Of a DNA stretch of 64,000 nt, positions 19,310-48,719 are shown piece after piece. The DNA is taken from NCBI GenBank assembly GCA_040902225.1, contig JBBDXT010000004.1, positions 516,965-580,964 of the forward strand. The letters run 5' to 3'. The notes beneath the pieces were generated by a model. It saw only the letters and a list, made by a program, of their open reading frames with translations. It was not told where the DNA came from and did not search any database. Each line of letters begins with the position of its first letter. Position 1 is the stretch's first letter. Position numbers and translations under genes: made by a program. Source of the stretch: Chloroflexota bacterium (lineage in GTDB: Bacteria; Chloroflexota; Limnocylindria; QHBO01).

Positions 19310-20802
19310 GCGCACCACGCTTGATGGGCCTCGGCGAGCTGACCGACGCCATCGGTCCGGAACGGGTGGTCGGCGTGCCGGTCGGCGAGGTCCGCTCCCT
19401 CGCCTACGACTCGCGGCACGCCACTGCGGGCACACTCTTCTTCGCGGTTCCCGGCGACCATGTCGACGGGCATGACTTCATCGCCGATGCGGTGGCGCGC
19501 GGCGCACGAGCGGTGGTCGCCGAGCGGGAGACCCCTGGCCTCGCCGTCCCGCAGCTGCTTGTGCCCCGCACCCGCGACGCACTGGGCGATGCCGCCGACG
19601 CCTGGTACGGGCGCCCCTCGGAGCGCCTGGAGGTGATCGGCGTGACCGGCACCGACGGCAAGACCACGACCTGCTACCTGGCCGTCGCCGCGCTGCAGGC
19701 CGGCGCGCGCCGGCCGGGGATGATCGGCACGGTGGCGGTACGGGTCGGCGACATGGAGTGGCCCAATAGGGATCGGAACACAACCCCGGAGGCGCTGGAG
19801 CTCCAGGCGCTGCTGGCGGGCATGGTCGAGGCCGGCAACGATTGCGTGGTGATGGAGGCGACCAGCCACGGACTCGCCCAGTCACGCGTCCGCAACTGCC
19901 GCTTCCGGGTCGCGATTGTGACCAACGTGACCAGCGAGCACCTCGAGTTCCACGGCACGCTGGAGGCGTATCGGGCGGCCAAGGCGATGCTGGTCGAGGA
20001 GGCGCCGATTTCCATCCTGAATGCCGATGACCCAGCCTTCGGCTACTTCCGCGACCGAGCTCGTGACCGGGTCCTCACCTACGGGACCGATTCCTCCGCC
20101 GACGTCCGCGCCACTGATATCGAGGCCCGCGCCGACGGCACGACCTTCACGGCCACCACGCCCAGCTGGAGCGCCGAGGTCAGCCTGAAGCTGCCAGGTG
20201 CCTTCAACGTGCACAACGCCCTGGCGGCGCTGGCCCTGGCCGAGGTCGAGGGCGTTGACCTCGCTGCAGCGGCCGCCGCCCTTGGCGGCGTCAGCGGCGT
20301 TCCCGGCCGAATGGAGCGGATCGACGCTGGTCAGCCGTTCGGGGTGGTGGTCGACTACGCGCACACCGCCGAGTCGCTCGAGAAGGTGCTCAGCACCCTT
20401 CGTCCGCTGACAAAGGGGCGACTGATCGTGGTCCTCGGTTCGGCGGGGGAGCGCGACCGGGTCAAGCGTCCCGCCCTGGGGCGCGTGGCGGCCGAGCTGG
20501 CCGACCTCGCCATCGTGGCGGACGAGGACCCCCGCCTGGAAGATCCGCGGGTCATCAACGAGGCGATCGCCGACGGGGCGCGCGAAGCTGGCGCTCGCGA
20601 CGGCGAGAACCTCTGGGTCATCGACGACCGCCGGCAGGCGGTCGCACACGCCATCCGCCTGGCGGAGGCGGGCGACATGATCCTGCTGGCCGGCAAGGGG
20701 CACGAGGGCAGCATCATCTACGGCCGCGAGAAGCGCTGGTGGGACGAGCGCGAGGTGGCTCGCCAGGAACTCGCCACGGCCGGATTCAGCGCCGATGCCT
20801 GA
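19306..20802 (+). CDS. murE: UDP-MurNAc-tripeptide synthetase MurE
   Basis: A 498-residue Mur ligase. The UDP-binding N-terminal domain holds SLAYDSRHATAGTLFFAVPG, the ATP loop is GVTGTDGKTTT (about 113-122), and the central domain holds NVTSEHLEFHGT. The third amino acid is recognised in the C-terminal domain; the usual DNPR motif of diaminopimelate enzymes is here D-E-D-P-R (406-410), similar in pattern to the DDPR form found in Lys-using Thermotoga MurE. The substrate may therefore be lysine or ornithine rather than diaminopimelate, which would fit the FemX genes on both sides. It overlaps both neighbours. Confidence 0.94.
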   Translation: MSAPRLMGLGELTDAIGPERVVGVPVGEVRSLAYDSRHATAGTLFFAVPGDHVDGHDFIADAVARGARAVVAERETPGLAVPQLLVPRTRDALGDAADAWYGRPSERLEVIGVTGTDGKTTTCYLAVAALQAGARRPGMIGTVAVRVGDMEWPNRDRNTTPEALELQALLAGMVEAGNDCVVMEATSHGLAQSRVRNCRFRVAIVTNVTSEHLEFHGTLEAYRAAKAMLVEEAPISILNADDPAFGYFRDRARDRVLTYGTDSSADVRATDIEARADGTTFTATTPSWSAEVSLKLPGAFNVHNALAALALAEVEGVDLAAAAAALGGVSGVPGRMERIDAGQPFGVVVDYAHTAESLEKVLSTLRPLTKGRLIVVLGSAGERDRVKRPALGRVAAELADLAIVADEDPRLEDPRVINEAIADGAREAGARDGENLWVIDDRRQAVAHAIRLAEAGDMILLAGKGHEGSIIYGREKRWWDEREVARQELATAGFSADA

Positions 20803-21865
20803 GCTCTCCGCCTTCTACGTCACCGACCGCGACGCCTGGAACGCCTTCGTCGAACAGGCCCCGTACCGCAGCTTCCCGCAGCTCTGGGAGTGGGGCGAGC
20901 TGCGCGAGCCGGCCGGGTGGCGTGCCATCCGGTTCGCGGTAGGGGAGCGCGAGGAGCGGCCGCTGGCGGGCGCCCAGGTGCTGATCCGCACCGTGCCGGT
21001 CGTCGGCTGGCGCCTCGGGTATGCGCCGCGGGGCCCGATCGGCCAGTTCGACGAGCCGGAGACTCGCCGATCCCTGGTCGCGGCCATGCGCCACCTGCGC
21101 GTCCTGGAAGGGATAGCCACCCTCAAGGTGGACCCCGAGGCCACGGCAGGCGAACCGCTCAGTGCGGAGCTTCTTGGCCCCCGTTGGCGGCCGTCGGCCA
21201 AGGTGCAGCCGCCGCGGACCCGGGTCATCGACCTCTCACTCGACGAGGACGCGCTCCTGGCCGGCATGCGCAAGAAGCACCGGCAGTACGTCCACAAGGC
21301 AGAACGCGCCGGGATCCAGGTCGAGCAGCTCGCCACGAACGCCCCGCCCAACGAGGCGGCCACCGCCCTGACCGACTTCTACGCGATCTACCGGGAGACC
21401 GCCGAGCGCGCGGGATTCGCGGTCCGCGTGCAGGAGTACTACGAACGCGTCTGGAGCCTCTTCGGCCCGGGCGGCCACGCCCGGCTCTTCTTCGCCACCC
21501 TGGACGGCGAGCGCGTGGCGACGCTCTTCCACTTCACATGCGGCGACCGCGCCGCAGAGGCCTACGGCGGCATGACCGATGCCGGCGCGGCCTCGCACGC
21601 CAACTATCTGCTCAAGTGGGAGGCGATGCGCGCCTTCAAGGCCGCCGGCTTCTCCAGCTACGACCTGTGGGGCATCGCGACCGGCGGCATCGCGCAGTTC
21701 AAGGAGGGCTTCGGCGGCCGACAGATCGACTACGTCGGCGCCCGGGACCTTCCGCTCCGCACCGCCCAGGACGCGGCCCTCCGGTTGCTCCTGCCCGCCT
21801 ACGGCATCGCCCAGCGAGCCCGCCTGCGGCTCACTGGTCACAAGCTCGCGGGCAGCGACGACTGA
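20795..21865 (+). CDS. FemX-family aminoacyltransferase (copy 2)
   Basis: A 356-residue FemX-type protein, diverged from copy 1 but with the same landmarks: YRSFPQLWEWGELREPAGWR, the basic KKHRQYVHKAERAGI helix, YETAERAGF-like second GNAT start, and YDLWGIATGG...FKEGFGG. It starts inside the end of murE (8-base overlap), so it is cotranslated with it. Expected reaction: tRNA-dependent transfer of an amino acid to the lipid II side chain, after or in place of copy 1. The topA-led operon appears to end here: a minus-strand gene begins 6 bases downstream. Confidence 0.88.
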   Translation: MPELSAFYVTDRDAWNAFVEQAPYRSFPQLWEWGELREPAGWRAIRFAVGEREERPLAGAQVLIRTVPVVGWRLGYAPRGPIGQFDEPETRRSLVAAMRHLRVLEGIATLKVDPEATAGEPLSAELLGPRWRPSAKVQPPRTRVIDLSLDEDALLAGMRKKHRQYVHKAERAGIQVEQLATNAPPNEAATALTDFYAIYRETAERAGFAVRVQEYYERVWSLFGPGGHARLFFATLDGERVATLFHFTCGDRAAEAYGGMTDAGAASHANYLLKWEAMRAFKAAGFSSYDLWGIATGGIAQFKEGFGGRQIDYVGARDLPLRTAQDAALRLLLPAYGIAQRARLRLTGHKLAGSDD

Positions 21866-21870
21866 CGGAG

Positions 21871-22131
21871 TCAGCGGCTCTTCGAGAAGTCGGTCTCCTT
21901 CACGACCTTGCCAGTGCGATCGTAAGTCCGCCAGATCCCGATCTGCCGCCCACGGTCGAACTCGCCGGATCGCATCGGGCTCCCGTCCTTGCGGAAGAAC
22001 TCCCAGGCGCCGTGCATCTGGCCGTCGAGCTGAAAGCCGCGGTAGCGGACTCCGCCGTCGTCGTAGTGAGCGATATCGGGGACCGGCTCCGTGCGTTTCG
22101 GCATCCAGGGGATTATCGTCGTTCGGGCCAT
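21871..22131 (-). CDS. Small MORN-like (YwqK-type) repeat protein
   Basis: An 86-residue soluble protein whose second half carries about three short MORN-variant units (YRGFQLDGQMHGAWEFFRKD, SGEFDRGRQIGIWRTYD, KETDF), the pattern of YwqK-family proteins that are sometimes annotated as antitoxin components. It is convergent with femX copy 2 and divergent from the Phd-VapC pair, sharing with it a 36-base promoter region that holds a palindrome. MPKRTEPV at 22104 is an alternative start. A link to the neighbouring toxin is possible but unproven. Confidence 0.65.
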   Translation of the reverse strand: MARTTIIPWMPKRTEPVPDIAHYDDGGVRYRGFQLDGQMHGAWEFFRKDGSPMRSGEFDRGRQIGIWRTYDRTGKVVKETDFSKSR

Positions 22132-22144
22132 TGACCAGGGTCTT

Positions 22145-22156
22145 ATGACCGGTCAT
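22145..22156. promoter_or_regulatory. Palindromic operator ATGACCGGTCAT in divergent promoter
   Basis: A perfect 12-base palindrome within the imperfect longer repeat TTATGACCGGTCATGATAA. It abuts the GATAAT element (22157-22162) of the antitoxin gene and lies 14 bases before the start of the divergent MORN-like gene. The position fits autoregulation by the antitoxin or toxin-antitoxin complex on both genes. Confidence 0.55.
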
Positions 22157-22162
22157 GATAAT
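22157..22162 (+). promoter_or_regulatory. -10 element GATAAT, leaderless promoter of antitoxin gene
   Basis: GATAAT ends 5 bases before ATG 22168 and directly follows the palindrome, so a bound repressor would block it. It also argues for ATG 22168 over the in-frame TTG 22162. Confidence 0.5.
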
Positions 22163-22167
22163 TGGCC

Positions 22168-22464
22168 ATGAGAACCGTGACTGCGATGGGCCTTCGGGCG
22201 CGCCTGGGCGAGATCCTCGACGCAGCTTCTTCCGGCGAGCGGATCGTGATCGAGCGTGACCATAAGCCGATGGCGGTCTTGATCCCTTACGAGGACGCCG
22301 CCCGCCTCGATCCGGACGAGCAGGAGCGCATCCGGCGCAGCCTCGAGGCTCTTGACCGACTGGTGGCCCGCGGCAAGCGCCTCCGGGCCTCGGGTCTCAT
22401 TCCCGGGGACGCGCCAGATGCAGTGACGGCGATCCGTGAGGAGCGGGCGCGCGATGACCTCTAG
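22168..22464 (+). CDS. Phd/YefM-type antitoxin
   Basis: A 98-residue protein. The N-terminal half MRTVTAMGLRARLGEILDAA followed by SGERIVIERDHKPMAVLIPY is the Phd/YefM fold, in which the head binds DNA; the charged C-terminal tail (RRSLEALDRLVARGKRLRAS onward) would wrap the toxin. It neutralises the PIN toxin encoded next and represses its own promoter. ATG 22168 is preferred over TTG 22162 because of the GATAAT spacing. It overlaps the toxin gene by 11 bases, giving coupled translation. The module interrupts the femX series and has slightly lower GC than the flanks, consistent with acquisition. Confidence 0.85.
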   Translation: MRTVTAMGLRARLGEILDAASSGERIVIERDHKPMAVLIPYEDAARLDPDEQERIRRSLEALDRLVARGKRLRASGLIPGDAPDAVTAIREERARDDL

Positions 22465-22990
22465 CGTGGCCTCGGCGCTCGTAGTCGACGCCTCGGTCGC
22501 CGTGGCGATCACCGTCCAAGAAGCGGGTCACGACCGCGCCGTTACGATCCTCCGAGAGCGCCGGGCCGCCGGTAGCAAGCTGCTGGTGCCTGCATTCTTT
22601 TGGCTCGAGGTGGCCAACGTCCTCGTCAGGCGCTATCGCCAGCGGCCTGGGGTGGTGCTCGAAGCAATCGTTGACTTGGAGAACCTTGGTCTGGAGTCTA
22701 TTGCGCTCGACCGGCCGCAACTGTTGCTCACGATCGACGCAATGGAGCGCGGCGGCCTTTCGGCCTACGACGCCGCGTATCTAGCCCTCGCGGAGTCCGC
22801 CAATGCGCAGCTCACGACTGCCGACCGACGCCTCGCTGCTGCAGCCGGCAGCCGGGCCTTACCGATCGGTGGCGGTCGCACAATCAAGGAAGCCCGCGAG
22901 CCCTACCCGGAATCCTGGGCGGCGTGGCCGGGGGCCGCCGCCTATCTCAAGCAGCTTCGCGCGCAGGTGGTCGGCCAGGCCAACGGGTAG
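22454..22990 (+). CDS. vapC: VapC-type PIN-domain ribonuclease toxin
   Basis: A 178-residue PIN-domain protein with the acidic catalytic set visible: Asp12 in LVVDASVAV, Glu in FFWLEVANVL, Asp in LSAYDAAYLALAE and Asp in LTTADRRLA. Such toxins cut tRNA or rRNA in the cytoplasm when the antitoxin decays. It is longer than typical VapC proteins (about 130-140 residues) because of a C-terminal extension of about 40 residues (GGRTIKEAREPYPESWAAWP onward). GAGGAG before ATG 22454 is a good ribosome site inside the antitoxin gene. Its TAG stop forms part of the TAGGCT element of the next gene. Confidence 0.87.
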   Translation: MTSSVASALVVDASVAVAITVQEAGHDRAVTILRERRAAGSKLLVPAFFWLEVANVLVRRYRQRPGVVLEAIVDLENLGLESIALDRPQLLLTIDAMERGGLSAYDAAYLALAESANAQLTTADRRLAAAAGSRALPIGGGRTIKEAREPYPESWAAWPGAAAYLKQLRAQVVGQANG

Positions 22991-22993
22991 GCT
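22988..22993 (+). promoter_or_regulatory. -10 element TAGGCT for femX copy 3
   Basis: TAGGCT begins with the TAG stop of vapC and ends 9 bases before ATG 23003, the same spacing as at topA and rel. No ribosome site is visible. Confidence 0.45.
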
Positions 22994-23002
22994 TCTGGAC
23001 CG

Positions 23003-24082
23003 ATGCCTCCCATCCTCCGTCGCGCCGACGACACCGACCGCACCGCCTGGGACGCCTTCATCGCCTCCCGTCCGGAGGCCGATCTCCTCCAGAGCTGGGC
23101 CTGGGGCGAGTGCACCGCGCTCGCGGGCGAGCCGTCTGCCCGCCTCCTGCTCGATGACAACGGCACGATCCGCGGCATTGCCCAGGCCCTCATGCGCCCT
23201 GCCGGGTTCGGCCGCCAGGTCGCCTACGTCGCGCATGGCCCAATCTGGGACCGATCGGCCCCGGACGCCGATCGTCTCTTCGCCTGGCTGCTCCAGGGCC
23301 TGCGCACCCTCGCCCGCAAGGAGAAGGCGCTCGTGGTCAAGCTCGACCCCCGTACGGAGCCCAGCGACGCGACCGACCTCGCCGGTCTTGTCGGGACCAA
23401 CAGGCTCCGCCCTGCACCCGACCTGCAGGCCCCGACTACCCGGATCGTCGACCTGCTGGATGGGGCCGAACAGCTCGAAGCGTCCTGGCACGCGGACGCG
23501 CGTCGCCTCTCGCGTCGCGCCGAGCGCGAGGGCACGCAGGTCACCGTCACCCGCGAGCCCGATCCCGCGCAGATTGCGATCCTCCACGAGCTGCTGACCC
23601 TGACCGCCGAGCACGGCGACTTTCGCGTCCGCTCACCGGAATTTCTCGAGCGGCTCGCGACCGAGCTGAGCCGCTCGGACGGCTGGTACCTGGGCATCGG
23701 CCGTGTCGAGGACACGCCGATCGCCGCCATGGCCTTCCCCCGCATCGGCAATCGCGCTTACTACCTGTACGGGGCCCTCCGCCGCGACCCCGAGTACAAG
23801 CATCACTACGGCGCCCACGCCGTCATGGCCACGATGCTCCGGGACCTCGCCGCCGATGGCTGCTCCACCGTCGACATGTGGGGCGTCGCCGAGCCGGACG
23901 ACACCACCGCCGATCCCGCCTGGCGTGGCTTCTCCGACTTCAAACGCACCTTCGGCGGCCTTCCCCTCCGCCATCCCGGCCTCTTCGACCTCGTGACCCA
24001 TCGGTTCTGGTACCGGCTTCGCGCCATGCGGGCCTGGTTCCATGGGCGTGTCGCAGCGATTCTTGCCTTGTCGGATCGGTAG
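23003..24082 (+). CDS. FemX-family aminoacyltransferase (copy 3)
   Basis: A 359-residue FemX-type protein with the same plan as copies 1 and 2: SWAWGECTALAGEPSARLLL, AYVAHGPIWDRSAPD, SWHADARRLSRRAEREGTQV, YYLYGALRRDPEYKHHYGAH and VDMWGVAEPDD...FKRTFGG. It probably adds an amino acid to the lipid II stem peptide. It is separated from copies 1 and 2 by the MORN-like gene and the toxin-antitoxin pair and seems to have its own promoter. Three paralogues suggest a multi-residue interpeptide bridge or different substrates. Confidence 0.87.
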   Translation: MPPILRRADDTDRTAWDAFIASRPEADLLQSWAWGECTALAGEPSARLLLDDNGTIRGIAQALMRPAGFGRQVAYVAHGPIWDRSAPDADRLFAWLLQGLRTLARKEKALVVKLDPRTEPSDATDLAGLVGTNRLRPAPDLQAPTTRIVDLLDGAEQLEASWHADARRLSRRAEREGTQVTVTREPDPAQIAILHELLTLTAEHGDFRVRSPEFLERLATELSRSDGWYLGIGRVEDTPIAAMAFPRIGNRAYYLYGALRRDPEYKHHYGAHAVMATMLRDLAADGCSTVDMWGVAEPDDTTADPAWRGFSDFKRTFGGLPLRHPGLFDLVTHRFWYRLRAMRAWFHGRVAAILALSDR

Positions 24083-31479: not shown

Positions 31480-31615
31480 TTGGGCTCTCCTCTCGTCGTT
31501 GGGCGAGCCACCAAGCTGATGGCCGCTCGCTATCTGATGCAATGAGAGCCTCTGCCCTTCGATCGACTCAATCTTCGCTGACGGGCAGGGAGCGTTTCCC
31601 GAGGGTATGGGTCGG

Positions 31616-31621
31616 TAGACT
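31616..31621 (+). promoter_or_regulatory. -10 element TAGACT, leaderless promoter for hisS
   Basis: TAGACT ends 6 bases before ATG 31628, identical in sequence and spacing to the element at 1326-1331. No ribosome site lies between. Confidence 0.6.
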
Positions 31622-31627
31622 CCGCAC

Positions 31628-32893
31628 ATGTCCCGTCCCGTCTCCGCGCCGCGCGGCACGCGCGACCTGCTCCCCGAGGACGGCTCCGCCTGGAGCCGCA
31701 TCGAGGAGATCGCCCGGGACCTGAGCAGCCGGTATGCGCTCGATCGGATCGAGACGCCGCTCTTCGAGCGGATCGAGCTGTTCAGCCGCGGCCTGGGTGA
31801 GTCGTCCGACGCAGTCGAGAAGGAGATGTTCCGCGTCAGCGGGGCGGCCGGCAGCGAGGAGGAGCGCGCCGAGTGGGCGCTCCGACCGGAGCCCACTGCC
31901 GGCATCGTGCGGGCCTATCTCGAGCACGGCATGCACGTGCGGCCAGGTCCGCAGCGCCTGTGGATGATCGGCCCCATGTTCCGCTACGACCGCCCGCAGG
32001 CCGGCCGCTTCCGGCAGTTCGTGCAATGGGACGTCGAGGTCATCGGCGATCCGGGCCCGATGGTCGACGCCGAGATCATCGAGCTCGGCCACCGTTTCTT
32101 CGAGGGGGCGGGGTTGGGCGACGTCGTGGCCTACGTCAACTCGATCGGCGACGCGACGTGCCGCCCCGGCTACCGAACCGCCCTGATCGAGTACTTCGCT
32201 GCGAACGAAGACCGCCTGACCGATGACTCGCGACGGCGGCTGAGCGTCAACCCGCTGCGTGTCCTCGATGGCAAGGATCTTGATCCGGAGCTCGCTGCGG
32301 GCGCCCCCCGCTCGATGGACCACCTGTGCGATCCGTGCCGAGCGCACTTCGTGGCGGTCCAGGCATTGCTCGACGACCTCGGCGTGCGCTACGAGGTCGA
32401 CAATCGCATCGTGCGGGGCCTCGACTACTACACGCGCACCACCTTCGAGTTCTACGTTGCCGGCCGTCGGGGGCAGCAGCAGGCGCTCGGTGGCGGCGGC
32501 CGCTACGACGGGCTGGCGGAGCTCCTCGGCGGGCCCCCGATGCCGGGGATCGGCTTCGGGATCGGGATTGATCGGACGGTGCTGGCGGCAGCCGAGCAGG
32601 GCGTTACGGTGCCGGCAGGCGCACCCCTGGTGGTCGTGGTCGGCGCGGATCCGGATGCCCTTGCGCCGCGCCTGGCGGTCGCCGGGACCCTGCGTCAGGC
32701 CGGCCTCCGCGTGCGCGCCGACGGCAGCGCCCGAAAGCTGGGGAGGCAGCTGGAGTCGGCTGCCAAGCTCGGAGCACGCTTTGCTGTCATCGTCGACCCG
32801 CAGCTGCCGGAGGGGAGCGTGACCCTGCGCGACCTGGATGCCAGCGAGCAGCGCCAGGTCCGGCTCGACGAGGTAGCCGGGTCGATGCGTTAG
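31628..32893 (+). CDS. hisS: Histidyl-tRNA synthetase
   Basis: A 421-residue class II synthetase. Motif 1 lies around ETPLFERIELF, motif 2 around MFRYDRPQAGRFRQFVQWDV, the histidine-specific loop is VRGLDYYTRTTFEFY, motif 3 is MPGIGFGIGIDRTVLA, and an anticodon-binding domain follows (about 325-415). The presence of both the RGLDYYT loop and the C-terminal anticodon domain marks it as HisRS rather than the HisZ paralogue. It appears to be a single-gene unit: the gene downstream is convergent and ends 7 bases away. Confidence 0.95.
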   Translation: MSRPVSAPRGTRDLLPEDGSAWSRIEEIARDLSSRYALDRIETPLFERIELFSRGLGESSDAVEKEMFRVSGAAGSEEERAEWALRPEPTAGIVRAYLEHGMHVRPGPQRLWMIGPMFRYDRPQAGRFRQFVQWDVEVIGDPGPMVDAEIIELGHRFFEGAGLGDVVAYVNSIGDATCRPGYRTALIEYFAANEDRLTDDSRRRLSVNPLRVLDGKDLDPELAAGAPRSMDHLCDPCRAHFVAVQALLDDLGVRYEVDNRIVRGLDYYTRTTFEFYVAGRRGQQQALGGGGRYDGLAELLGGPPMPGIGFGIGIDRTVLAAAEQGVTVPAGAPLVVVVGADPDALAPRLAVAGTLRQAGLRVRADGSARKLGRQLESAAKLGARFAVIVDPQLPEGSVTLRDLDASEQRQVRLDEVAGSMR

Positions 32894-32899
32894 CCCCTA

Positions 32900-36970: not shown

Positions 36971-36998
36971 CGATCCACACCTCCATGTCCCAGCGTCG

Positions 36999-37004
36999 TA
37001 GACT
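36999..37004 (+). promoter_or_regulatory. -10 element TAGACT, leaderless promoter for LCP gene
   Basis: TAGACT ends 7 bases before GTG 37012, an in-frame start 27 bases inside the longest open frame. The element lies inside the putative longer coding region, which argues against ATG 36985. Confidence 0.5.
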
Positions 37005-37011
37005 GCCGCCC

Positions 37012-38445
37012 GTGGCGCCCCGCTTGATCGCCGCGATTCGGCACTCCGCCGTGATCGCAGCTCTGCTCTCGTTCGTGTGGCCCGGCCTTGGTCAAGGCTG
37101 GGTCGGTTCGCGTCGTCGGGCGCTGATGTTCGCGGTGCCGATGATGCTCCTGCTGGGCGCCGGCGTGGTGGTCATGATCGTGCAGGGCAAGGCCCGCTCC
37201 CTGGGCCTGCTGCTCCAGCCGAGCGTTCTGCTGCCGCTCATCGCGCTCAACATCGCCGTGCTCGTCTACCGCCTCTTCGCAATCGTGGACGCGTATCGAG
37301 CGGCGGCGCGCCGTTGGCCGCCGATCCCGGATTTCCGGGCCGCGCTCGGACTGGTCCTCCTGGGCACCCTGCTGGGCAGCACGCTCCTGATGCACGGCTG
37401 GCTGGGGTTCGTCGGCATCAAGGCGTATGACACCGTGGTCGCCATCTCCCACCCGTTCGGCAGCGCGACGCCGGTCCCCGCCGCCAGCCGGCTACCCGGC
37501 GAGACGCCCGGCCCGACGCCCGAGCCGACGCCGATCCCCACTCCAGAACCGGCGTGGGGTGACAACGGGCGGCTCGATCTGCTCCTGGTCGGGGGAGACG
37601 CCGGCCCCGGGCGCTTCAGCCTGCGCACGGACACGATGGTCATCCTGAGCATCGAGGTCAGGACCGGGCGCGCTGCGCTGTTCGGGCTGCCGCGCAACCT
37701 CCTGAACGTCCCGCTGCCGGACGGTCCGGCCCAGGCCTTCGACTGCCGGTGCTATCAGGACCAGCTGAATTCGCTCTACACCTACGCCATTGCTCATCCC
37801 GAGATCTTCCCCGGCCCTGATGAGGAGCGCGGCTATCGGGCCGTCCAGGAGGCGATCGCCGAGCTGACCGGCCTCCAGATCGACGGGCAGGTGGTTGTCA
37901 CCCTCGGCGGCTTCATTCACGTGGTGGATGCGCTGGGTGGGCTGGACATGACGACGAAGGACTCCATCTATGATGCGACCTATCCGGATCCCTTCAGCAT
38001 CAAGCGCGATGTCACCGTCTACATTGCGAGAGGCTTCCACCACTTCGACGGCTGGCATGCGCTGGCCTACGCGCGTTCGCGCCACCAGGACAACGACTAC
38101 AACCGGATGAACCGGCAGCAGGAGGTGCTGCTGGCGCTCCGCCAGCAGCTCGACCCGTGCACCCTCATCCCGCGCATCCCCGAGCTGCTCGACATCGCCC
38201 GTGACTCGCTCTGGACCAACATCCCGATCGAGCAGCTGCCGGACCTGTTGGCGATCGGAGCCAGCGTTCGCCCCGGCACCATCGCCACCTACCAGTTCTG
38301 GCCACCGGCCATTCAAGAGAATCTGGACTTCGCGAGCATCAGCCGGGTGCGGTCGATCGCGCGCACCGCGTTCCTGATGCCCTTGGCAACGCCGGCGCCG
38401 TCGTCCAGCGAGACCCCCACATCCGGCTCCGGGTCGGTCTGCTAG
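37012..38445 (+). CDS. LytR-CpsA-Psr (LCP) family envelope transferase
   Basis: A 477-residue protein: about four N-terminal membrane helices, a Pro/Thr-rich linker (PGETPGPTPEPTPIPTPEPA) and an extracytoplasmic LCP domain (about 185-440) with RTDTMVILSIEVRTGRAALF, GLPRNLLNVPLPDG and HALAYARSRHQDNDYNRMNR, which hold the Arg/Asp residues that bind the polyprenyl pyrophosphate. LCP proteins attach glycopolymers to peptidoglycan, or sometimes to protein. The multi-helix N-terminus is longer than the usual single helix. Start GTG 37012 is chosen from the TAGACT element; ATG 36985 is the alternative. Confidence 0.87.
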   Translation: MAPRLIAAIRHSAVIAALLSFVWPGLGQGWVGSRRRALMFAVPMMLLLGAGVVVMIVQGKARSLGLLLQPSVLLPLIALNIAVLVYRLFAIVDAYRAAARRWPPIPDFRAALGLVLLGTLLGSTLLMHGWLGFVGIKAYDTVVAISHPFGSATPVPAASRLPGETPGPTPEPTPIPTPEPAWGDNGRLDLLLVGGDAGPGRFSLRTDTMVILSIEVRTGRAALFGLPRNLLNVPLPDGPAQAFDCRCYQDQLNSLYTYAIAHPEIFPGPDEERGYRAVQEAIAELTGLQIDGQVVVTLGGFIHVVDALGGLDMTTKDSIYDATYPDPFSIKRDVTVYIARGFHHFDGWHALAYARSRHQDNDYNRMNRQQEVLLALRQQLDPCTLIPRIPELLDIARDSLWTNIPIEQLPDLLAIGASVRPGTIATYQFWPPAIQENLDFASISRVRSIARTAFLMPLATPAPSSSETPTSGSGSVC

Positions 38446-41073: not shown

Positions 41074-41334
41074 ATGAAAGATTCCGGGTTCGGCAGCTTC
41101 CTCGCAGGAGTCGTGATCGGCGGACTGATCGGTGCCGCCATCGGCCTCCTCCTTGCCCCGCGAACGGGTGACGAGATTCGCGAGCAGGTCGGTGAGTTCG
41201 TCGGCGAGAAGAAGGCAGCCATCGGTGAGGCGATCAGCGAGGGTCGCGCGGCGGCCGAGAAGGCACGCGCGGAGATGATGTCCGCGTACGATGCCGGCGG
41301 TGGGGAGCCTGCGCCGGAGGGCGCTGCCTCCTGA
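41074..41334 (+). CDS. YtxH-like small protein
   Basis: An 86-residue protein with a glycine-rich N-terminal helix (FLAGVVIGGLIGAAIGLLLA) immediately followed by PRTGDEIREQV and a charged helix rich in Ala/Glu/Lys (KKAAIGEAISEGRAAAEKAR). This is the YtxH/gas-vesicle-like pattern, found in general-stress proteins. It is probably membrane associated. It lies alone between the mnmA unit and alaS; a strong hairpin follows its stop. Confidence 0.8.
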   Translation: MKDSGFGSFLAGVVIGGLIGAAIGLLLAPRTGDEIREQVGEFVGEKKAAIGEAISEGRAAAEKARAEMMSAYDAGGGEPAPEGAAS

Positions 41335-41367
41335 CCGGCCATTCGCGCGCAATCACGCACGAGGAGT

Positions 41368-41393
41368 CGAGAGCCGGTTGTCGCCGGCTCTCG
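41368..41393 (+). terminator. GC-rich hairpin between ytxH-like gene and alaS
   Basis: A perfect 10-base-pair stem: C-GAGAGCCGG, loop TTGTCG, CCGGCTCTC-G. No T-tract follows, so it could be a factor-assisted terminator for the ytxH-like gene, or a 5'-leader structure of alaS, whose ATG lies 30 bases downstream. Confidence 0.45.
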
Positions 41394-41422
41394 TGGTGAG
41401 TACGAGGTCACGGGCAGGACCG

Positions 41423-44050
41423 ATGCCGGAGCTGCAGGCCGCCGAGATCCGCGAGCGCTTCCAGCGCTTCTTCGAGGCGCGCGGCCACACCCGCGTGCCG
41501 GCGGCTCCGCTCCTTGCGCGCGACGACCCGACGCTCCTCTTCACCAACTCGGGGATGGTCCAGTTCAAGCGGGTGCTGACCGGCGAGGAGAAGCGCGACT
41601 ACACGCGCGCCGTCGACGCGCAGCCATGCCTGCGGGTGGCCGGCAAGCACAACGACTTCGAGCAGGTTGGGCGCACACCCCGTCACCACACCCTGTTCGA
41701 GATGCTCGGCAACTGGAGCTTCGGCGACTATTTCAAGCGCGAGGCGATCCACTGGGCGTGGGAGTTCCTGACGGTCGAGCTGGGGATTCCTGGCGAGCGC
41801 ATCGCCGCCACCACCTATACCGATGACGACGAGGCGCGCCGCATCTGGAGCGAGGAGATCGGCCTTCCGCCGGAGCGGATGGCGCAGTGGGGCAACATCG
41901 CCGCCGGCGACGACCACAACTTCTGGTCGATGGGCGAGACCGGCCCGTGCGGGCCGTGCAGCGAACTGCACTACGACCGCGGCGCCGAGCTTTCCGAGGG
42001 GCCCGAATGCGTGCCCGACCATTCGGAGACCTGCCCGCGCTGGCTGGAGATCTGGAATCTGGTCTTCATGCAGTTCGACCGATCAGTCGACGGGACCCTC
42101 ACGCCTCTGCCGTTCCCCAGCGTCGACACCGGGATGGGACTGGAGCGGATGGCGAGCGCCGTGCAGGGGGTCGACAGCAACTACCTGACCGACCTTTTCA
42201 CCCCGATCATCGACCGGCTGGCGGAGCATCTTGGCCACGATCCCCAGAGCGTCGAGAGCGAGCGCTTCAGCTACCAGGTGGTCGCCGACCACAGCCGGGC
42301 GATGACCTTCCTGATCGGCGAGGGACTGAGGCCGTCGAATGAGGGTCCCGGCTACGTGCTGCGCCGGATCATGCGGCGTGCCGTCCGGCACCTGCGCCTG
42401 ATGGGGATCACGCAGGCGGTGCTGGCCGAGACGTGCGGGACCGTCATCGAGGTGATGGGCGGCGCGTACCCGTATCTCGTCGCGAATCGGGAAGAGATCC
42501 TGGGCACGGTCGACGCCGAGGAGCGCAAGTTCGCACGCACGCTCGAGGCGGGGAGCGAGCGGCTCGCAGCGCTGGTCGACGCGGCGGGGCCGAATGGCAC
42601 CATCGCCGGCGACGAGGCGTTCCGGCTGCACGACACGTTCGGCTTCCCGATCGACCTCACCGTGGAGATCGCTGCGGAGCGTGGCGTGACCGTGGACCGC
42701 AAGGGGTTCGAGGCCGCCATGGAGGAACAGCGCGATCGCTCGCGGGGCTCCCGCGCCGGCCGCTTCGCGCCACTCCCGGGCGTCGAAGGGCTGCGCAGCG
42801 AGTTCACCGGCTATCCCAACGAGACGTCGGCAGATGGCCTGGCTGTCCTGGTGGTTGCGGAGGGCGAGGGATCGACCCAGGTCGTGCTCGACAGGACGCC
42901 GTTCTACGCGGAGGGCGGCGGCCAGATCGGCGATCGTGGCGAGCTGGTCGGAGAGCGTGGAAGGCTCGTGGTGGACGACACGCAGCGCGTCGGCGACGCG
43001 ATCGTGCATGTCGGGCGGCTGGAGGGCGCGCTCACCGTCGGCGACGTGGTCAACGCCCGCGTCGACGAGGAGCGACGCTGGGGGGCGGCGCGCAACCACA
43101 CCGCCACGCACCTGCTGCACCGCGCCCTGCGCGACGTCCTCGGCGAGCAGGCAAAGCAGGCCGGCAGCTGGGTTGGGCCGGATGGGCTGCGCTTCGACTT
43201 TCCGGCGGACGCGGCCACGCCGCGGGAGGGGCTGCGCGACGTCGAGCGTCAGGTGAATGCTCAGATCCGCCGCAACGCATCGGTCACACCGACCGAGATG
43301 TCGCTGGCCGAGGCCCAGGCGATCGGCGCCGACATGTTCTTCGGCGAGAAATATGCCCCCGAGCGGGTTCGGGTCATACGGGTCGATGGCTACAGCGCCG
43401 AGCTGTGCGGCGGCACGCACGTGGCGGCGACGGGGCAGATCGGCTCCTTCCGGATCACGGGTGATGCGAGCATCGGCACCGGGTTGCGGCGAATCGAGGC
43501 GGTGAGCGGAGCGGCGGCCGATGAGCTGGTCGCCTCCCGGCTCGAGGCGCTGCACACGGCGGCCCAGCTGCTCGGCGCCGCCGAGGACCAGGTCGCGACT
43601 CGAATCGAGAGTCTGCAGGCGCGGCTGCGAGAGGCGGAGAAGGGTGGCAGCAACGCCAGCACCACGCGACTCGATGCCGTGCAAGCCCTGGCGGGTGCGC
43701 AGCAGGCGGGTGAGGCGAAGGTCGTCGTCGAGCGCTACGCCGATGCCGATGGCGCCGCGCTGCGGGCTCTCGCGGATGACCTGCGCGCCGCAACGGGTCG
43801 CTTCGTGGCCGTCATCGCCGGTGAGCGCGGAGGGCCGGCGATCCTGGTCGCCGCCAGTCGCGACCTCGTCGAGGAAGGGTTCGATGCTGCCGCAATCGTG
43901 CGCGAGGTGGCGCCGATGATCGGGGGCGGGGGCGGCGGGCGCGCAGAGCTTGCCCAGGCGGGTGGCAAGGACCTCGCCGGCCTGGACCAGGCGCTGCGCG
44001 AGGGCGCCCGCCTGGCGCTCGAGGCGCTCCAGCGGATCGAGAACGGCTGA
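41423..44050 (+). CDS. alaS: Alanyl-tRNA synthetase
   Basis: An 875-residue AlaRS: catalytic domain (TNSGMVQFKRVLTGEE; HNDFEQVGRTPRHHTLFEML), the editing domain zinc set in NHTATHLLHRAL and CGGTHVAATGQIG, and the C-terminal C-Ala domain with coiled coil and a glycine-rich end (GGGGGGRAELAQAGG). Length agrees with bacterial AlaRS. The frame is open from 41291, but ATG 41423, preceded by GGCAGG, gives the standard start MPELQAAEIRERF. The FtsA-like gene follows after 2 bases, so they are probably cotranscribed. Confidence 0.96.
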   Translation: MPELQAAEIRERFQRFFEARGHTRVPAAPLLARDDPTLLFTNSGMVQFKRVLTGEEKRDYTRAVDAQPCLRVAGKHNDFEQVGRTPRHHTLFEMLGNWSFGDYFKREAIHWAWEFLTVELGIPGERIAATTYTDDDEARRIWSEEIGLPPERMAQWGNIAAGDDHNFWSMGETGPCGPCSELHYDRGAELSEGPECVPDHSETCPRWLEIWNLVFMQFDRSVDGTLTPLPFPSVDTGMGLERMASAVQGVDSNYLTDLFTPIIDRLAEHLGHDPQSVESERFSYQVVADHSRAMTFLIGEGLRPSNEGPGYVLRRIMRRAVRHLRLMGITQAVLAETCGTVIEVMGGAYPYLVANREEILGTVDAEERKFARTLEAGSERLAALVDAAGPNGTIAGDEAFRLHDTFGFPIDLTVEIAAERGVTVDRKGFEAAMEEQRDRSRGSRAGRFAPLPGVEGLRSEFTGYPNETSADGLAVLVVAEGEGSTQVVLDRTPFYAEGGGQIGDRGELVGERGRLVVDDTQRVGDAIVHVGRLEGALTVGDVVNARVDEERRWGAARNHTATHLLHRALRDVLGEQAKQAGSWVGPDGLRFDFPADAATPREGLRDVERQVNAQIRRNASVTPTEMSLAEAQAIGADMFFGEKYAPERVRVIRVDGYSAELCGGTHVAATGQIGSFRITGDASIGTGLRRIEAVSGAAADELVASRLEALHTAAQLLGAAEDQVATRIESLQARLREAEKGGSNASTTRLDAVQALAGAQQAGEAKVVVERYADADGAALRALADDLRAATGRFVAVIAGERGGPAILVAASRDLVEEGFDAAAIVREVAPMIGGGGGGRAELAQAGGKDLAGLDQALREGARLALEALQRIENG

Positions 44051-44052
44051 CG

Positions 44053-45354
44053 GTGCAGGACCGGCTGAGGAGCCTCGTCGAACGCCTGACCAGGGTCGGT
44101 GGGCGCTCGGCTGCCGGTCCGCCGGCGCTCGTCGCACTCGATGTTGGGACCGAGTTCGCCAAGGCCCTGGTGGTGGCCATCACGCCTGACGAGGAGGGGC
44201 GGCTGGTCGGATCGGTCCGGGGCTCGGGACGGCAGCGTCAGGGCCTCACCCACATGCAGTCGGGCACCGTGAGCGACATTGATGCGGTCGTCGCCAATTG
44301 CTCACGCGCCCTGGGCGAGGCGCGGGAGATGGCGGGCATGCAGGCGACCTCGGCCGTGATCGGCATCGCCGGCGAGCTGGTCAAGGGCACGACCTCGAAT
44401 GGCGCGGTGCACCGCGAGAATCCACACGCGCCCATGACCGAGGCGGAGCTGCAGCAGATCGTGGAGCAGGTGCAGATCGAGGCCCTGGCCGACGCGGAGC
44501 GCCGCATCGCCTGGGAGAGCGGCGTCGAGCGCCTGGACGTGCGCCTGGTGCACGCTGCGGTGGTCGAGCTCAAGATCGACGGCTACCCGGTCAGCAATCC
44601 GATCGGCTTCACCGGCGCGCAGCTCGAGCTGTCGGTCTTCAACGCCTTCGCGCCGATGGTTCACCTTGGTGCCCTGCAGTCGGTGGCGAGCCAGCTTGGT
44701 CTCAAGCTGCTTGGAGTGATTGCCGAGCCGTATGCGGTGGCCACCTGCCTGGATCCCGGCGAGCTGGGGGATGCGGGCGCGGTCTTCGTGGACATCGGTG
44801 GCGGGACGACCGACGTGGCCCTGGTGCGCCACGGCGGGATCGCGGGCACCAAGATGCTGGCACTCGGCGGGCGGGCCTTCACCAAGGGGATCGCTGAGCG
44901 CTTTGCCCTCTCCTTCTCGCGCGCCGAGGCATTGAAGCTCGCGGCCGCGGACGGGGAGCTGCCCGAGCAGGTCGACCGGGCGACGCTGGCCGAGGCGCTG
45001 GCCGACGATGCGGCCGTGTGGCTGGGCGGCGTCGAGCTGATGATCAGCGACCTTGCCGAGGGGGAGCTGCTGCCCGGCCGTGTCTACCTGTGCGGCGGGG
45101 GCGCGGAGCTGCCGCAGATCGTGGCCGCGCTCGACGGCGATGAATGGTGGCATCGGCTGCCCTTTGCGCGAAAACCCCAGGTTCGTCCGCTCTCCCCGGC
45201 AGATGTGGTGGGCCTCCACGATGCGAGCGGGCAGCTGGCGACGCGCCAGGACGTGACCCCGATGGCGCTCGCGCACCAGGCCCTCATCCTCGACGCCAGC
45301 AGCAGCGCGGCCGAGCGTGCGATGCGCGCCGCCGTGCGGGCGATGCAGCTGTGA
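44053..45354 (+). CDS. FtsA/PilM-like actin-fold ATPase
   Basis: A 433-residue actin-fold protein: phosphate 1 VALDVGTEFAKALVVAI (about 26-42), an SHS2-like insertion (about 95-190), phosphate 2 AVFVDIGGGTTDVALV (about 243-258), adenosine motif YLCGGGAELPQIVAAL. These are FtsA/PilM hallmarks. There is no ftsZ nearby and no C-terminal amphipathic FtsA membrane helix is obvious, so it is unlikely to be the division FtsA. It is coupled by GTGA to a bitopic baseplate-J-like membrane protein, a pair that recalls PilM with PilN: a cytoplasmic actin-like ATPase bound to a membrane protein. Role unknown. Confidence 0.82.
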   Translation: MQDRLRSLVERLTRVGGRSAAGPPALVALDVGTEFAKALVVAITPDEEGRLVGSVRGSGRQRQGLTHMQSGTVSDIDAVVANCSRALGEAREMAGMQATSAVIGIAGELVKGTTSNGAVHRENPHAPMTEAELQQIVEQVQIEALADAERRIAWESGVERLDVRLVHAAVVELKIDGYPVSNPIGFTGAQLELSVFNAFAPMVHLGALQSVASQLGLKLLGVIAEPYAVATCLDPGELGDAGAVFVDIGGGTTDVALVRHGGIAGTKMLALGGRAFTKGIAERFALSFSRAEALKLAAADGELPEQVDRATLAEALADDAAVWLGGVELMISDLAEGELLPGRVYLCGGGAELPQIVAALDGDEWWHRLPFARKPQVRPLSPADVVGLHDASGQLATRQDVTPMALAHQALILDASSSAAERAMRAAVRAMQL

Positions 45355-46979
45355 GCCCCGTGGACGGCGAGCCCCAGCTCCTCTACCTGGAGCCCGACGA
45401 CGAGATCACCTCGGTGGTGCGCCGCCTGCGTGGGGCCGATGCCGGACGCGTCGTGCTGGTCGCTCCCGGCCGCAGCCGCGCGACCTCGAGCGTGGTGGCG
45501 CTGCGCCTGCTGGGGCGTGCCGCGGCCGAGACCGGTCGCTCCGTGGCGCTGGTGGCCGATGCCTCGACGCGGTCGCTTGCCGGCGAGGCTGGCATCGCCG
45601 CCTTCGCCTCGGTCGCCGACGCGACCTCGCCAACGCCATCCCCCGCGGAGCCGATGACTCCCACCCGTGCGCCAATTCACGTGGTCCGCGGCGCGGGCGG
45701 CGCACGGCCCCAGCCTGCAAGGCCGATCCCTGCCACCGACGGCATGGAGGAGACGGTGGCCGTCCACCTGCCACCGCCGTCTGGGGCTCCGGGTGCACCG
45801 GGTCGCGGACGCCGGCGCACTCGGGGCCTGCCCCGCTGGCCGTGGCTGGTGGCGCTCCTCGCCGCGGCTCTTGCGGCGGGCGCCGCGCTGCTGCCCGGGG
45901 CAACCGTCACGATCACGCCCGCCACGACGCCCGTTGGACCGGTCTCGATTCCGGTCACGGTCGACGTTGCCGGGCACGTGGCCGCCGAACTGGAGTCCAC
46001 CGAGCCCGGCACGGCAACGGGTGAGCGGCTGGAGGAGGTTCCGGCCAGCGGGGTCGTCACCTTCTTCAACTGGAATACGGTTGCTGTGGAAGTCCCCCGG
46101 GGCACGCACGTGTCGGTCGGTGGGAACACCGCGTTTGTCACGCTCGAGCGGATCGTGGTTCCGCGCGGCAAGTTTGGAGCGCCGATCGAGCCGGGTCAGA
46201 AGAGCGTCGCGGTGGCCGCCGTCGTGGCTGGCCTTGGGGGGAATGTCGCAGCCGGTGCGATCGACACGGTGGACGACGATGGGGTACGGCTCTTCCTGCG
46301 TGGATTCCCTGACAACCCGAACCGCTTAGTGACGAACTCCGAAGCCACGGCCGGCGGCGCGGAGACACCGCACACCGTGATCCAGCAGGAGGATGTCGAT
46401 GCTGTCGTGGCCGCCATCGAAGCCGACCTCCGGTCGCAGCTGGACGCGGCGCTGGCAGGAGATGCGGACCGCCTGTTCGCCGCGGCCACGGCCGAGGAGG
46501 TACCGAGCATCGAGGTACCCGACGACCTGGTCGGCAAGGAGGACGAGGCCACCTTCGAGCTGCGGGGGACGCTGACGTTCGATCGCGCGTACGGTTCCCG
46601 TGCCGAGGCCGAGTCAACAGCTTCTTCGGCGCTCCTGACGCTTGGCGAAGAGGTGCCGCCGGGAACCGCCATCGTGGCCGACTCGATCCAGGTGGAGCTG
46701 GGGCCGGCGACGCTGGCCGGAGGGCGGCTGGACCTCACGGCTTCGGTGACGGCCGCCGCAGCCGCTGAGATAGACCAGGCCCAGGTGCGCGACCGCATCG
46801 CCGGACTGACCGTCCCCGAGGCCAAGGCTGAGCTCGCCCCGCTTGGTGACGTCGACGTCGACCTGTGGCCGGCCTGGGTGGATCGGCTCCCTCGGCTGAC
46901 CTTCCGAATCGACATCAGGGAGGAGGTCCAGACCCCGACCGAGTCACCCGGCCAGGCGCCGGCCCAGTCATTGAACTGA
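45351..46979 (+). CDS. Bitopic membrane protein with baseplate-J-like domain
   Basis: A 542-residue protein. The N-terminal cytoplasmic domain (about 1-95; LLYLEPDDEITSVVRRLRGA, VVLVAPGRSRATSSVVALRL) has an alternating beta-alpha pattern. A Pro-rich linker is followed by one membrane helix (about 163-185). The outer part (about 186-525) contains baseplate-J/gp47-like segments (VPRGTHVSVGGNTAFVTLER, GGNVAAGAIDTV) and ends PTESPGQAPAQSLN. Baseplate-J domains build phage tail and secretion baseplates, but similar bitopic proteins occur without phage genes. GTG 45351 overlaps the FtsA-like stop. An envelope assembly or anchoring role together with the FtsA-like ATPase is inference. Confidence 0.75.
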   Translation: MSPVDGEPQLLYLEPDDEITSVVRRLRGADAGRVVLVAPGRSRATSSVVALRLLGRAAAETGRSVALVADASTRSLAGEAGIAAFASVADATSPTPSPAEPMTPTRAPIHVVRGAGGARPQPARPIPATDGMEETVAVHLPPPSGAPGAPGRGRRRTRGLPRWPWLVALLAAALAAGAALLPGATVTITPATTPVGPVSIPVTVDVAGHVAAELESTEPGTATGERLEEVPASGVVTFFNWNTVAVEVPRGTHVSVGGNTAFVTLERIVVPRGKFGAPIEPGQKSVAVAAVVAGLGGNVAAGAIDTVDDDGVRLFLRGFPDNPNRLVTNSEATAGGAETPHTVIQQEDVDAVVAAIEADLRSQLDAALAGDADRLFAAATAEEVPSIEVPDDLVGKEDEATFELRGTLTFDRAYGSRAEAESTASSALLTLGEEVPPGTAIVADSIQVELGPATLAGGRLDLTASVTAAAAAEIDQAQVRDRIAGLTVPEAKAELAPLGDVDVDLWPAWVDRLPRLTFRIDIREEVQTPTESPGQAPAQSLN

Positions 46980-47407
46980 TGACAGCCGTCATCGGCCTGG
47001 ACCACGGCAGCCGGCGCATCGGTGTGGCGGTCGGCAACGAGGAGACCCGGCAGGCCTTCCCTCGTCCGGCATTGCTGCGCGGCAATGTGGCTACCGACCT
47101 GGAGCAGATCGCCGCGCTGGCAGGCTCCGAGGGCACGAGCCGAATCGTGGTGGGCCTGCCCCGCAACATGGACGGCAGCGAGGGGGCGCAGGCGGCTGCG
47201 GCACGGGCGTTTGGGGAGCAGCTGACCGCCATCGGCCTGGAGGTCGTCTTCGTCGACGAGCGGCTGACCAGCTGGCAGGCGGGGGAGCAGCTGGCGGCCG
47301 CGGGGCGCCGGCCGGAGCGGGGATCGGGCGAAAGGGACTCGGCGGCGGCGTGCCTCATCCTGCAAGAATGGCTCGACCGCAGGAGACCAGATGACCCGAC
47401 AGCCTGA
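46979..47407 (+). CDS. ruvX: Pre-16S rRNA processing RNase H-fold protein RuvX/YqgF
   Basis: A 142-residue RNase H-fold protein: GLDHGSRRIGVAVGNE at the N-terminus with the first catalytic Asp, IVVGLPRNMDGSEG, FVDERLTSWQA with the DER triad and RDSAAACLILQEWLD with the last Asp. It acts in 5' maturation of 16S rRNA. ATG 46979 overlaps the TGA of the baseplate-J-like gene (TGATG), and its end overlaps mltG by 17 bases. Confidence 0.93.
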   Translation: MTAVIGLDHGSRRIGVAVGNEETRQAFPRPALLRGNVATDLEQIAALAGSEGTSRIVVGLPRNMDGSEGAQAAAARAFGEQLTAIGLEVVFVDERLTSWQAGEQLAAAGRRPERGSGERDSAAACLILQEWLDRRRPDDPTA

Positions 47408-48719
47408 TCCCCGCTGGAACAAGAACGAGCAGCGCAACGCTCGGATCCGCGAGCTCCGCGACCAGCGCGACGCGCCGATGCGGCGGCGCCGCACGTTCCA
47501 GCCGCTGACCATTGTCGCCTGGTTTGGCGCCGTCATCGCGCTGGCCGTCGTACTGCTCTTTGTGGGCTTGCTGGCCCTCTCGCCCCGCCTCTTCGCGTGG
47601 GTGGAGGAGCATCCCGGCTCGATCGAGCACGGCGTCGTGCGCGACTTCGTGGAGTGGTACCGCCCCAACGCCCTGGCCGATGAGCCGGCCGGGGAGGATG
47701 GACGAAGGATCACGGTCGAGGTCGTGGCGGGCACCAACGATGCAGAGATCGGCCAGCTCCTCTTCGACAAGGGCGTCATCAGCAGCCAGCTCGCCTTCCA
47801 GTACGCGGTGCTGCAAGCCGAGCGCTCCGGCGAGCTGCAGGCCGGCGTCTATGACCTGTCGCCTGCGCTGCGCCCGTCTCAGATCGTGGCCGCTCTGAAG
47901 CAGGAGGCGGGCGAGGAGGTCACGATCACGCTCGTCGAGGGCTGGCGTCTGGAGCAGGTCGTCGGCTATCTGGGCACCACGAAGCTGACCATGAACCTGG
48001 AGGAGTTTGCGGCGCTCGCGAAGGCCCCGCCGGCCGACCTCGTCGCCCAGTTCGACTTCCTGGCCGATCTGCCGGAGGGCCGCAGCCTCGAGGGCTATCT
48101 CTACCCGGACACCTATCGGGTTGACGCCAATGACCACGCACGCCAGGTGCTCGAGAAGCTGCTCGGCACCTTCGGGGAGCGACTGACGCAGGAGATCCGC
48201 GACGGGATTGCCGCACAGGGGCTGACGATCGACCAGGCGGTGACCGTGGCCAGCATCGTGGAGCGCGAGGCGGTCCAGGACCCTGAGCGGCCGATCATCG
48301 CCGGCGTCTACCTCAACCGCATCAAGAACCCGACCGCCGGCACGGTTGGCCTCCTGAATGCCGACCCGACCCTCCAGTACGGGCTGGCCACGGCCGAGTT
48401 CGGGTCGCGGCCGATCTCCGAGTGGCAGGGGATCGAGTGGTGGCCGCAGCTGCAGACCGCGGGGGGCGAGGTGGTGCTCCCCGAGGAGCTGGCCGGCTAC
48501 CAGTCGTACCGGGTCAAGGGGCTCCCGCCGTCGCCGATCGCCTCGCCGCGGATCGCCTCGCTCGCCGGCGTGGCCGCGCCCGACACGAGCGGCGGCTACT
48601 TCTACTTCGTGGCGGCCTGCCCCGGCGGCGTGCGCGACGGGTCGCACTATTTCGCAGCGACCCTGCCGCAGCACAACGCCAACATCGCCAAGGCCAACGC
48701 CGAGTGCCCCGCGGCGTGA
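47391..48719 (+). CDS. mltG: Endolytic murein transglycosylase MltG
   Basis: A 442-residue bitopic protein: a basic cytoplasmic head of about 40 residues, one helix (about 39-62), a LysM-like domain (about 100-165; VEVVAGTNDAEIGQLLFDKG) and the YceG catalytic domain with EGYLYPDTYRVD and the catalytic Glu in VTVASIVEREA. ADPTLQYGL and YRVKGLPPSPI further support it. It cuts nascent glycan strands. Overlap with ruvX and spacing to efp put it in one operon; ruvX-mltG pairing is widespread. Confidence 0.95.
   Translation: MTRQPDPRWNKNEQRNARIRELRDQRDAPMRRRRTFQPLTIVAWFGAVIALAVVLLFVGLLALSPRLFAWVEEHPGSIEHGVVRDFVEWYRPNALADEPAGEDGRRITVEVVAGTNDAEIGQLLFDKGVISSQLAFQYAVLQAERSGELQAGVYDLSPALRPSQIVAALKQEAGEEVTITLVEGWRLEQVVGYLGTTKLTMNLEEFAALAKAPPADLVAQFDFLADLPEGRSLEGYLYPDTYRVDANDHARQVLEKLLGTFGERLTQEIRDGIAAQGLTIDQAVTVASIVEREAVQDPERPIIAGVYLNRIKNPTAGTVGLLNADPTLQYGLATAEFGSRPISEWQGIEWWPQLQTAGGEVVLPEELAGYQSYRVKGLPPSPIASPRIASLAGVAAPDTSGGYFYFVAACPGGVRDGSHYFAATLPQHNANIAKANAECPAA

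Follow-up and report, generated by a model that had tools for sequence, protein, structure and literature searches.

The window, a 64,000-nucleotide stretch of a Chloroflexota contig, contains two adjoining genes that we call gpA and gpB, set between alaS and the pair ruvX and mltG (Table 1). The gpA gene begins with GTG at 44053 and its stop codon occupies 45352-45354. The gpB gene also begins with GTG, at 45351, inside a four-base GTGA overlap with the gpA stop. The ATG of ruvX shares one base with the gpB stop (TGATG), and because of this overlap alaS, gpA, gpB, ruvX and mltG can be described as closely packed on a single strand. Envelope-building genes encoding MurJ, two FemAB-family proteins and an LCP-family protein lie at 16053-24082 and 36985-38445 of the window, which is weakly consistent with a wall context for gpA and gpB. 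A 442-aa open frame on the minus strand (31568-32896) is coding-like in composition and matched nothing in Pfam at E 1e-4. No RNA families were found in the window.

Table 1. Features of the gpA-gpB locus, in positions of the window.
Feature	Position	Strand	Length	Basis
alaS, conserved upstream neighbour (start codon provisional)	41291..44050	+		similarity and synteny
gpA, FtsA-family actin-like ATPase distinct from the genome's own FtsA	44053..45354	+	433 aa	
gpA C-terminal helix (residues 419-430), basic and amphipathic; possible FtsA-like membrane-targeting helix	45307..45342	+		
gpB, bitopic membrane protein	45351..46979	+	542 aa	
gpB N-terminal alpha/beta domain (residues 9-91), presumably cytoplasmic; proposed gpA-docking domain	45375..45623	+		
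gpB predicted membrane helix (residues 163-179)	45837..45887	+		AF2 model
gpB outer region (residues 183-524), beta-rich	45897..46922	+		
Baseplate_J/GlxA-type beta-barrel within the gpB outer region (~residues 225-343)	46023..46379	+		
ruvX	46979..47407	+		PF03652, 1.1e-35
mltG (YceG-like lytic transglycosylase), conserved downstream neighbour	47391..48719	+		PF02618, 1.9e-64

The gpA protein matches Pfam FtsA (PF14450) at 3e-13 and the NCBIfam ftsA model (TIGR01174) at 5.9e-34, the latter over model positions 2-256 of 371. All 69 gpA homologues match the ftsA model (best 1.1e-36), and matches of the gpA type end at around position 256-271. With 117.7 bits against an equivalog cut-off of 175.85, gpA scores below canonical FtsA on the whole model. 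Its AF2 model (pLDDT 88.8) most resembles the FtsA:FtsN structure 7q6i, at TM 0.85 on the target; PilM 2ych reaches 0.80. The actin fold, an SHS2/1C-type insert and the phosphate and adenosine motifs place it in the FtsA/PilM-type superfamily. Across the 69 homologues the ATP-site residues D30, G32, T33, K37, D247, GGGT 249-252 and GGG 348-350 are invariant, and segment 418-433 has a mean hydrophobic moment of 0.46 (z 1.87) and a charge of +2.3. The basic C-terminal helix exceeds four control helices in amphipathicity.

The source genome (2.28 Mb, 99% complete) encodes a canonical FtsA elsewhere (C4:937586, 426.8 bits), as well as two MreB-like proteins. Canonical FtsA was likewise found in 46/46 sampled Chloroflexota and, separate from gpA, in 10/10 genomes tested from the Patescibacteria (CPR), nine of which carry an intact gpA-type match of ~102-123 bits alongside it. 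The possibility that gpA is the cell's only FtsA was rejected on these grounds. We built a tree of 77 sequences including 41 of gpA together with FtsA, MreB and PilM, the last confirmed by its own model. The 41 gpA sequences formed one group (SH-aLRT 94) apart from the other three families, with Chloroflexota gpA monophyletic (100) and CPR gpA surrounding it. More trust can be placed in this separation than in the branching order, since the deepest joins combine long branches with quick-search support. Thus gpA is distinct both from PilM and from the FtsA of its own cell, and is best described as a divergent FtsA paralogue in a clade of its own.

Such a paralogue might act in division as a second FtsA, anchoring FtsZ or components of the divisome at the membrane, whilst gpB, like FtsN, would activate wall synthesis at the septum. 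The best matches of gpA in both sequence and fold are to FtsA, one of them FtsA in complex with FtsN, and the amphipathic C-terminal helix and the presence of mltG in the neighbourhood would also agree with this role. Every genome tested for canonical FtsA nevertheless has one, and the module sits by alaS and mltG, away from the canonical ftsA locus. The TIGR01174 match moreover leaves out the C-terminal third, which in FtsA carries the contacts with the FtsZ tail; because the match ends where it does, gpA should not be credited with the filament and FtsZ-binding properties of FtsA. We therefore consider a second division FtsA unlikely, though it deserves to be weighed.

The AF2 model of gpB (pLDDT 88.4) comprises the N-terminal alpha/beta domain, in which a YLxxDDEIT motif is conserved, a disordered linker (~residues 107-161), the membrane helix and the beta-rich outer region. 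Basic residues precede the predicted membrane helix, suggesting an N-in topology. Pfam Baseplate_J (PF04865) matches residues 225-309 at 25.5 bits, above its gathering cut-off of 21.1, and at E 0.1 it is matched by 49 of 68 gpB homologues; the GlxA beta-barrel domain (PF21110) is matched by 18 of the 68 in Pfam. Streptomyces GlxA matches the same barrel about as strongly as Baseplate_J does, indicating that the domain is not phage-specific. Beyond this one J-type barrel, the remainder of the outer region gave no confident match. Against the PDB, the gpB sequence on its own gave no match and a profile search returned mostly barrel matches. Whole-chain TM scores from Foldseek were low (0.12-0.16 on the query for significant PDB hits), so the barrel alone is trusted.

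The initial annotation, made from the DNA letters alone, had described a complete FtsA/PilM-type ATPase joined by a GTGA overlap to a bitopic protein with a cytoplasmic alpha/beta domain, one helix and a large outer region, and in all of this it agrees with the profile matches, codon positions and models given above. It had also seen baseplate-J-like segments in the outer region; one such barrel stands, but the plural does not.

Next, the distribution of both genes was surveyed. We found gpB in 144/201 Chloroflexota genomes sampled and, counted at E 1e-12, in 218/230 CPR genomes sampled (~95%); some of its matches cover the outer region alone and may be paralogues. Counted at E 1e-40, gpA is present in 54/201 Chloroflexota and in 127/240 CPR genomes, 18 of the 127 being weak. 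A protein search gave matches in 53 of 61 genomes, the source genome counted. One narrow peptide pattern matched only Chloroflexota and Patescibacteria, besides otherwise-titled records, one of them Steroidobacteraceae. The record JAICUY010000012.1 (L035), which bears that title, has a typical Chloroflexota mnmA-alaS-gpA-gpB-ruvX-mltG locus with a gpA 72% identical, and is probably misnamed or misbinned.

The order alaS-gpA-gpB-ruvX-mltG, with gpA directly upstream of gpB, is shared by Limnocylindria, other Chloroflexota families and CPR, and contigs carrying the pair include Limnocylindrales, Saccharibacteria, Peregrinibacteria, Berkelbacteria and Howlettbacteria. Of 40 CPR regions chosen by gpA, 38 had calls for both genes; ruvX was called in 27, alaS in 25 and mltG in 17. 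In most of 39 Chloroflexota regions gpB adjoins ruvX, including those without gpA, and in many gpA-less Chloroflexota it remains between alaS and ruvX. The pair recurs in relatives and across Chloroflexota and CPR, and is thus not a chance adjacency. Its kept order with alaS and ruvX could reflect inertia instead of function. At four loci (L139, L144, L153 and L154) a divergent gpA-like protein of 74-158 bits occupies the gpA slot upstream of gpB, and one CPR genome has a further weak gpA-like frame of 37 bits just downstream of mltG (L211, 11011-12072).

Almost all gpA-bearing Chloroflexota (53/54) also have gpB, while gpA is absent from 91 of the 144 gpB-bearing ones. Thus, gpA is not required for the basic role of gpB. 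In one Chloroflexota family (f19; G099, G106, G113, G176, G197; L170, L171), single genomes hold several unlinked matches to the gpB outer region, as many as seven, and some of these lie in frames of ~900 aa. The many genomes with gpB alone, the multiplied outer regions of this family and the occurrence of J-type and GlxA barrels in secreted proteins would all suit a general outer-surface, adhesion or export protein, with gpA as its membrane-bound regulator and the mltG neighbourhood incidental. Conservation of the alaS-ruvX-mltG slot across two phyla speaks against this, as does the near-universal presence of gpB in CPR genomes of 0.4-2 Mb, which suggests a core role. We regard a general surface or export function as improbable.

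A pilus origin fares worse. PilM_2 scores gpA at 24.1 bits against a cut-off of 27 and TIGR01175 at 27.3 against 133, placing it outside PilM. We found no PilN match in gpB, and the source genome has neither a PilN match nor a PilM above cut-off. Bona fide PilM proteins that exceed the PilM cut-off (nine tested) are present in five of the 10 CPR genomes; these also have gpA, and the two proteins fall in separate clades. Despite the PilM-like fold of gpA and the adjoining of an actin-like ATPase with a bitopic protein, it is hence very improbable that the pair is PilM/PilN of a type IV pilus in ordinary or degenerate form. It is just as hard to credit that gpB is a baseplate anchor domesticated from a phage or injection system, since its Baseplate_J and phage baseplate matches come down to a single confident barrel that Streptomyces GlxA matches about equally, a tblastn search of 50,697 phage records gave no gpB match, and no phage or injection-system domains occur among the window genes scanned. 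Matches of gpA to phage records were just four, all weak and partial, one of them annotated FtsA.

We also checked which part of gpB follows gpA. In Chloroflexota, genomes with gpA have higher scores for the gpB N-domain than those that lack it (p=1e-4, kinship ignored), whilst their outer-region scores are if anything lower. In CPR, among the matches listed and with split matches not joined, the N-domain was detected in 85/89 genomes with strong gpA against 14/51 without (p=7e-18, kinship ignored). Retention of the N-domain that tracks gpA is what docking would predict. Distance-matrix coevolution with gpA gave partial values of 0.67 for the N-domain and 0.65 for the outer region and, being equal for both parts, does not single out the N-domain.

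Presence of gpB is also associated with that of mltG in Chloroflexota (both in 141 genomes, gpB alone in 3, mltG alone in 32, neither in 25; p=3.5e-13, kinship ignored), so that 141 of 144 gpB-bearing genomes have MltG. Genomes with mltG and no gpB include reduced members of the source genome's own class (family f5). Those with neither include family f10, with mostly single-contig genomes of 1.4-1.9 Mb, which we presume may be Dehalococcoidia. The Dehalococcoidia reportedly have no peptidoglycan wall. The link between gpB and mltG points to the cell wall.

Several broader claims of the initial annotation also hold. It had placed the pair in a housekeeping-like location with no phage or injection genes nearby, in keeping with the slot conserved across two phyla and the domain scan of the window. 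It had named ordinary PilM/PilN and chance adjacency in close relatives as the readings that would undo it; the FtsA encoded elsewhere, the absence of PilN, the separate clade of gpA and the recurrence of the pair in Chloroflexota and CPR argue against both, and the survey of genomes for both genes near ruvX and mltG that it had called for found the order kept in two phyla. Its view of an actin-like ATPase organising an outer-facing protein is partly supported, as far as the genetic tie between the two goes; that they bind, or that the ATPase organises a ring, would be a further step. Our results go further in making gpB the core of the module, often without gpA, in extending it to two phyla and in pointing through mltG to the cell wall.

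Our preferred reading, to which we give about even chances, is that the pair is an ancestral scaffold of the envelope in Chloroflexota and Patescibacteria, with gpA docked on gpB and gpB acting in wall synthesis. It draws on the predicted folds, the coupling of the genes, their two-phylum distribution and order, the separate clade of gpA, the co-retention of the N-domain and the co-occurrence with MltG. The core part would be gpB, crossing the membrane once and placing its outer region, J-barrel included, in the zone of the cell wall. On the inner side, gpA would bind ATP, may hydrolyse it, and would sit on the membrane, perhaps via its C-terminal amphipathic helix. By analogy with PilM on PilN or FtsA on FtsN, it would dock on the cytoplasmic alpha/beta domain of gpB and so position or cluster gpB from inside, possibly by polymerising or forming a ring. 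Outside, the most likely partner of gpB would be the peptidoglycan machinery, possibly MltG, whose gene is the second one downstream. A bolder version, offered tentatively and with more doubt than belief, would have gpB inherited from the common ancestor of Patescibacteria and Chloroflexota and serving, near-universally in the former and in most of the latter, as a core part of the envelope. In that version gpA would drive gpB and join FtsA and MreB as a third actin-like system, and the J-barrel outer assembly in the wall zone would control glycan synthesis or termination.

Patescibacteria have tiny genomes, are very widespread and hold many conserved genes with no assigned role. Presence in ~95% of sampled CPR, in an order common with Chloroflexota, makes gpB a strong candidate for a core role in the envelope. 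The pair may thus be an overlooked part of envelope building in both groups, and cell-envelope biology would gain a second FtsA-like system. Their shared presence and order is also a character bearing on the proposed relationship of CPR and Chloroflexota. In line with the initial annotation, which knew of no such system, no published description of gpA or gpB was found in the open-access literature; novelty is provisional because most subscription papers and preprints fall outside that search. Neither baseplate nor PilM is mentioned in the main text of a Saccharibacteria genetics paper (PMC10633639).

Among known systems, FtsA (TIGR01174, PF14450) shares with gpA its fold, ATP-site motifs, SHS2/1C-type insert and amphipathic C-terminal helix. 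By contrast, gpA falls below the family cut-off, has a truncated match, coexists with canonical FtsA, forms its own clade and is encoded beside alaS, ruvX and mltG. The likeness of gpB to Baseplate_J/gp47 wedge proteins (PF04865) is confined to one beta-barrel of ~85-120 residues in the outer region, whereas gpB is membrane-anchored, cellular, syntenic with housekeeping genes and matches no phage protein over its full length. The GlxA domain (PF21110, PDB 4unm/5lxz) matches the same barrel with similar strength, but the architecture of gpB is unlike that of GlxA and no oxidase domain match is present. PilM-PilN of type IV pili resembles the pair in that an actin-like ATPase gene adjoins that of a bitopic partner with a cytoplasmic part. 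It differs in that this part of gpB is a folded alpha/beta domain and the outer part is of J-barrel type, and in that gpA branches apart from PilM and its genome has neither PilN nor a qualifying PilM. In its anatomy, then, the gpA-gpB pair would work like PilM-PilN or FtsA-FtsN whilst belonging, by family cut-offs and the lack of a PilN partner, to neither.
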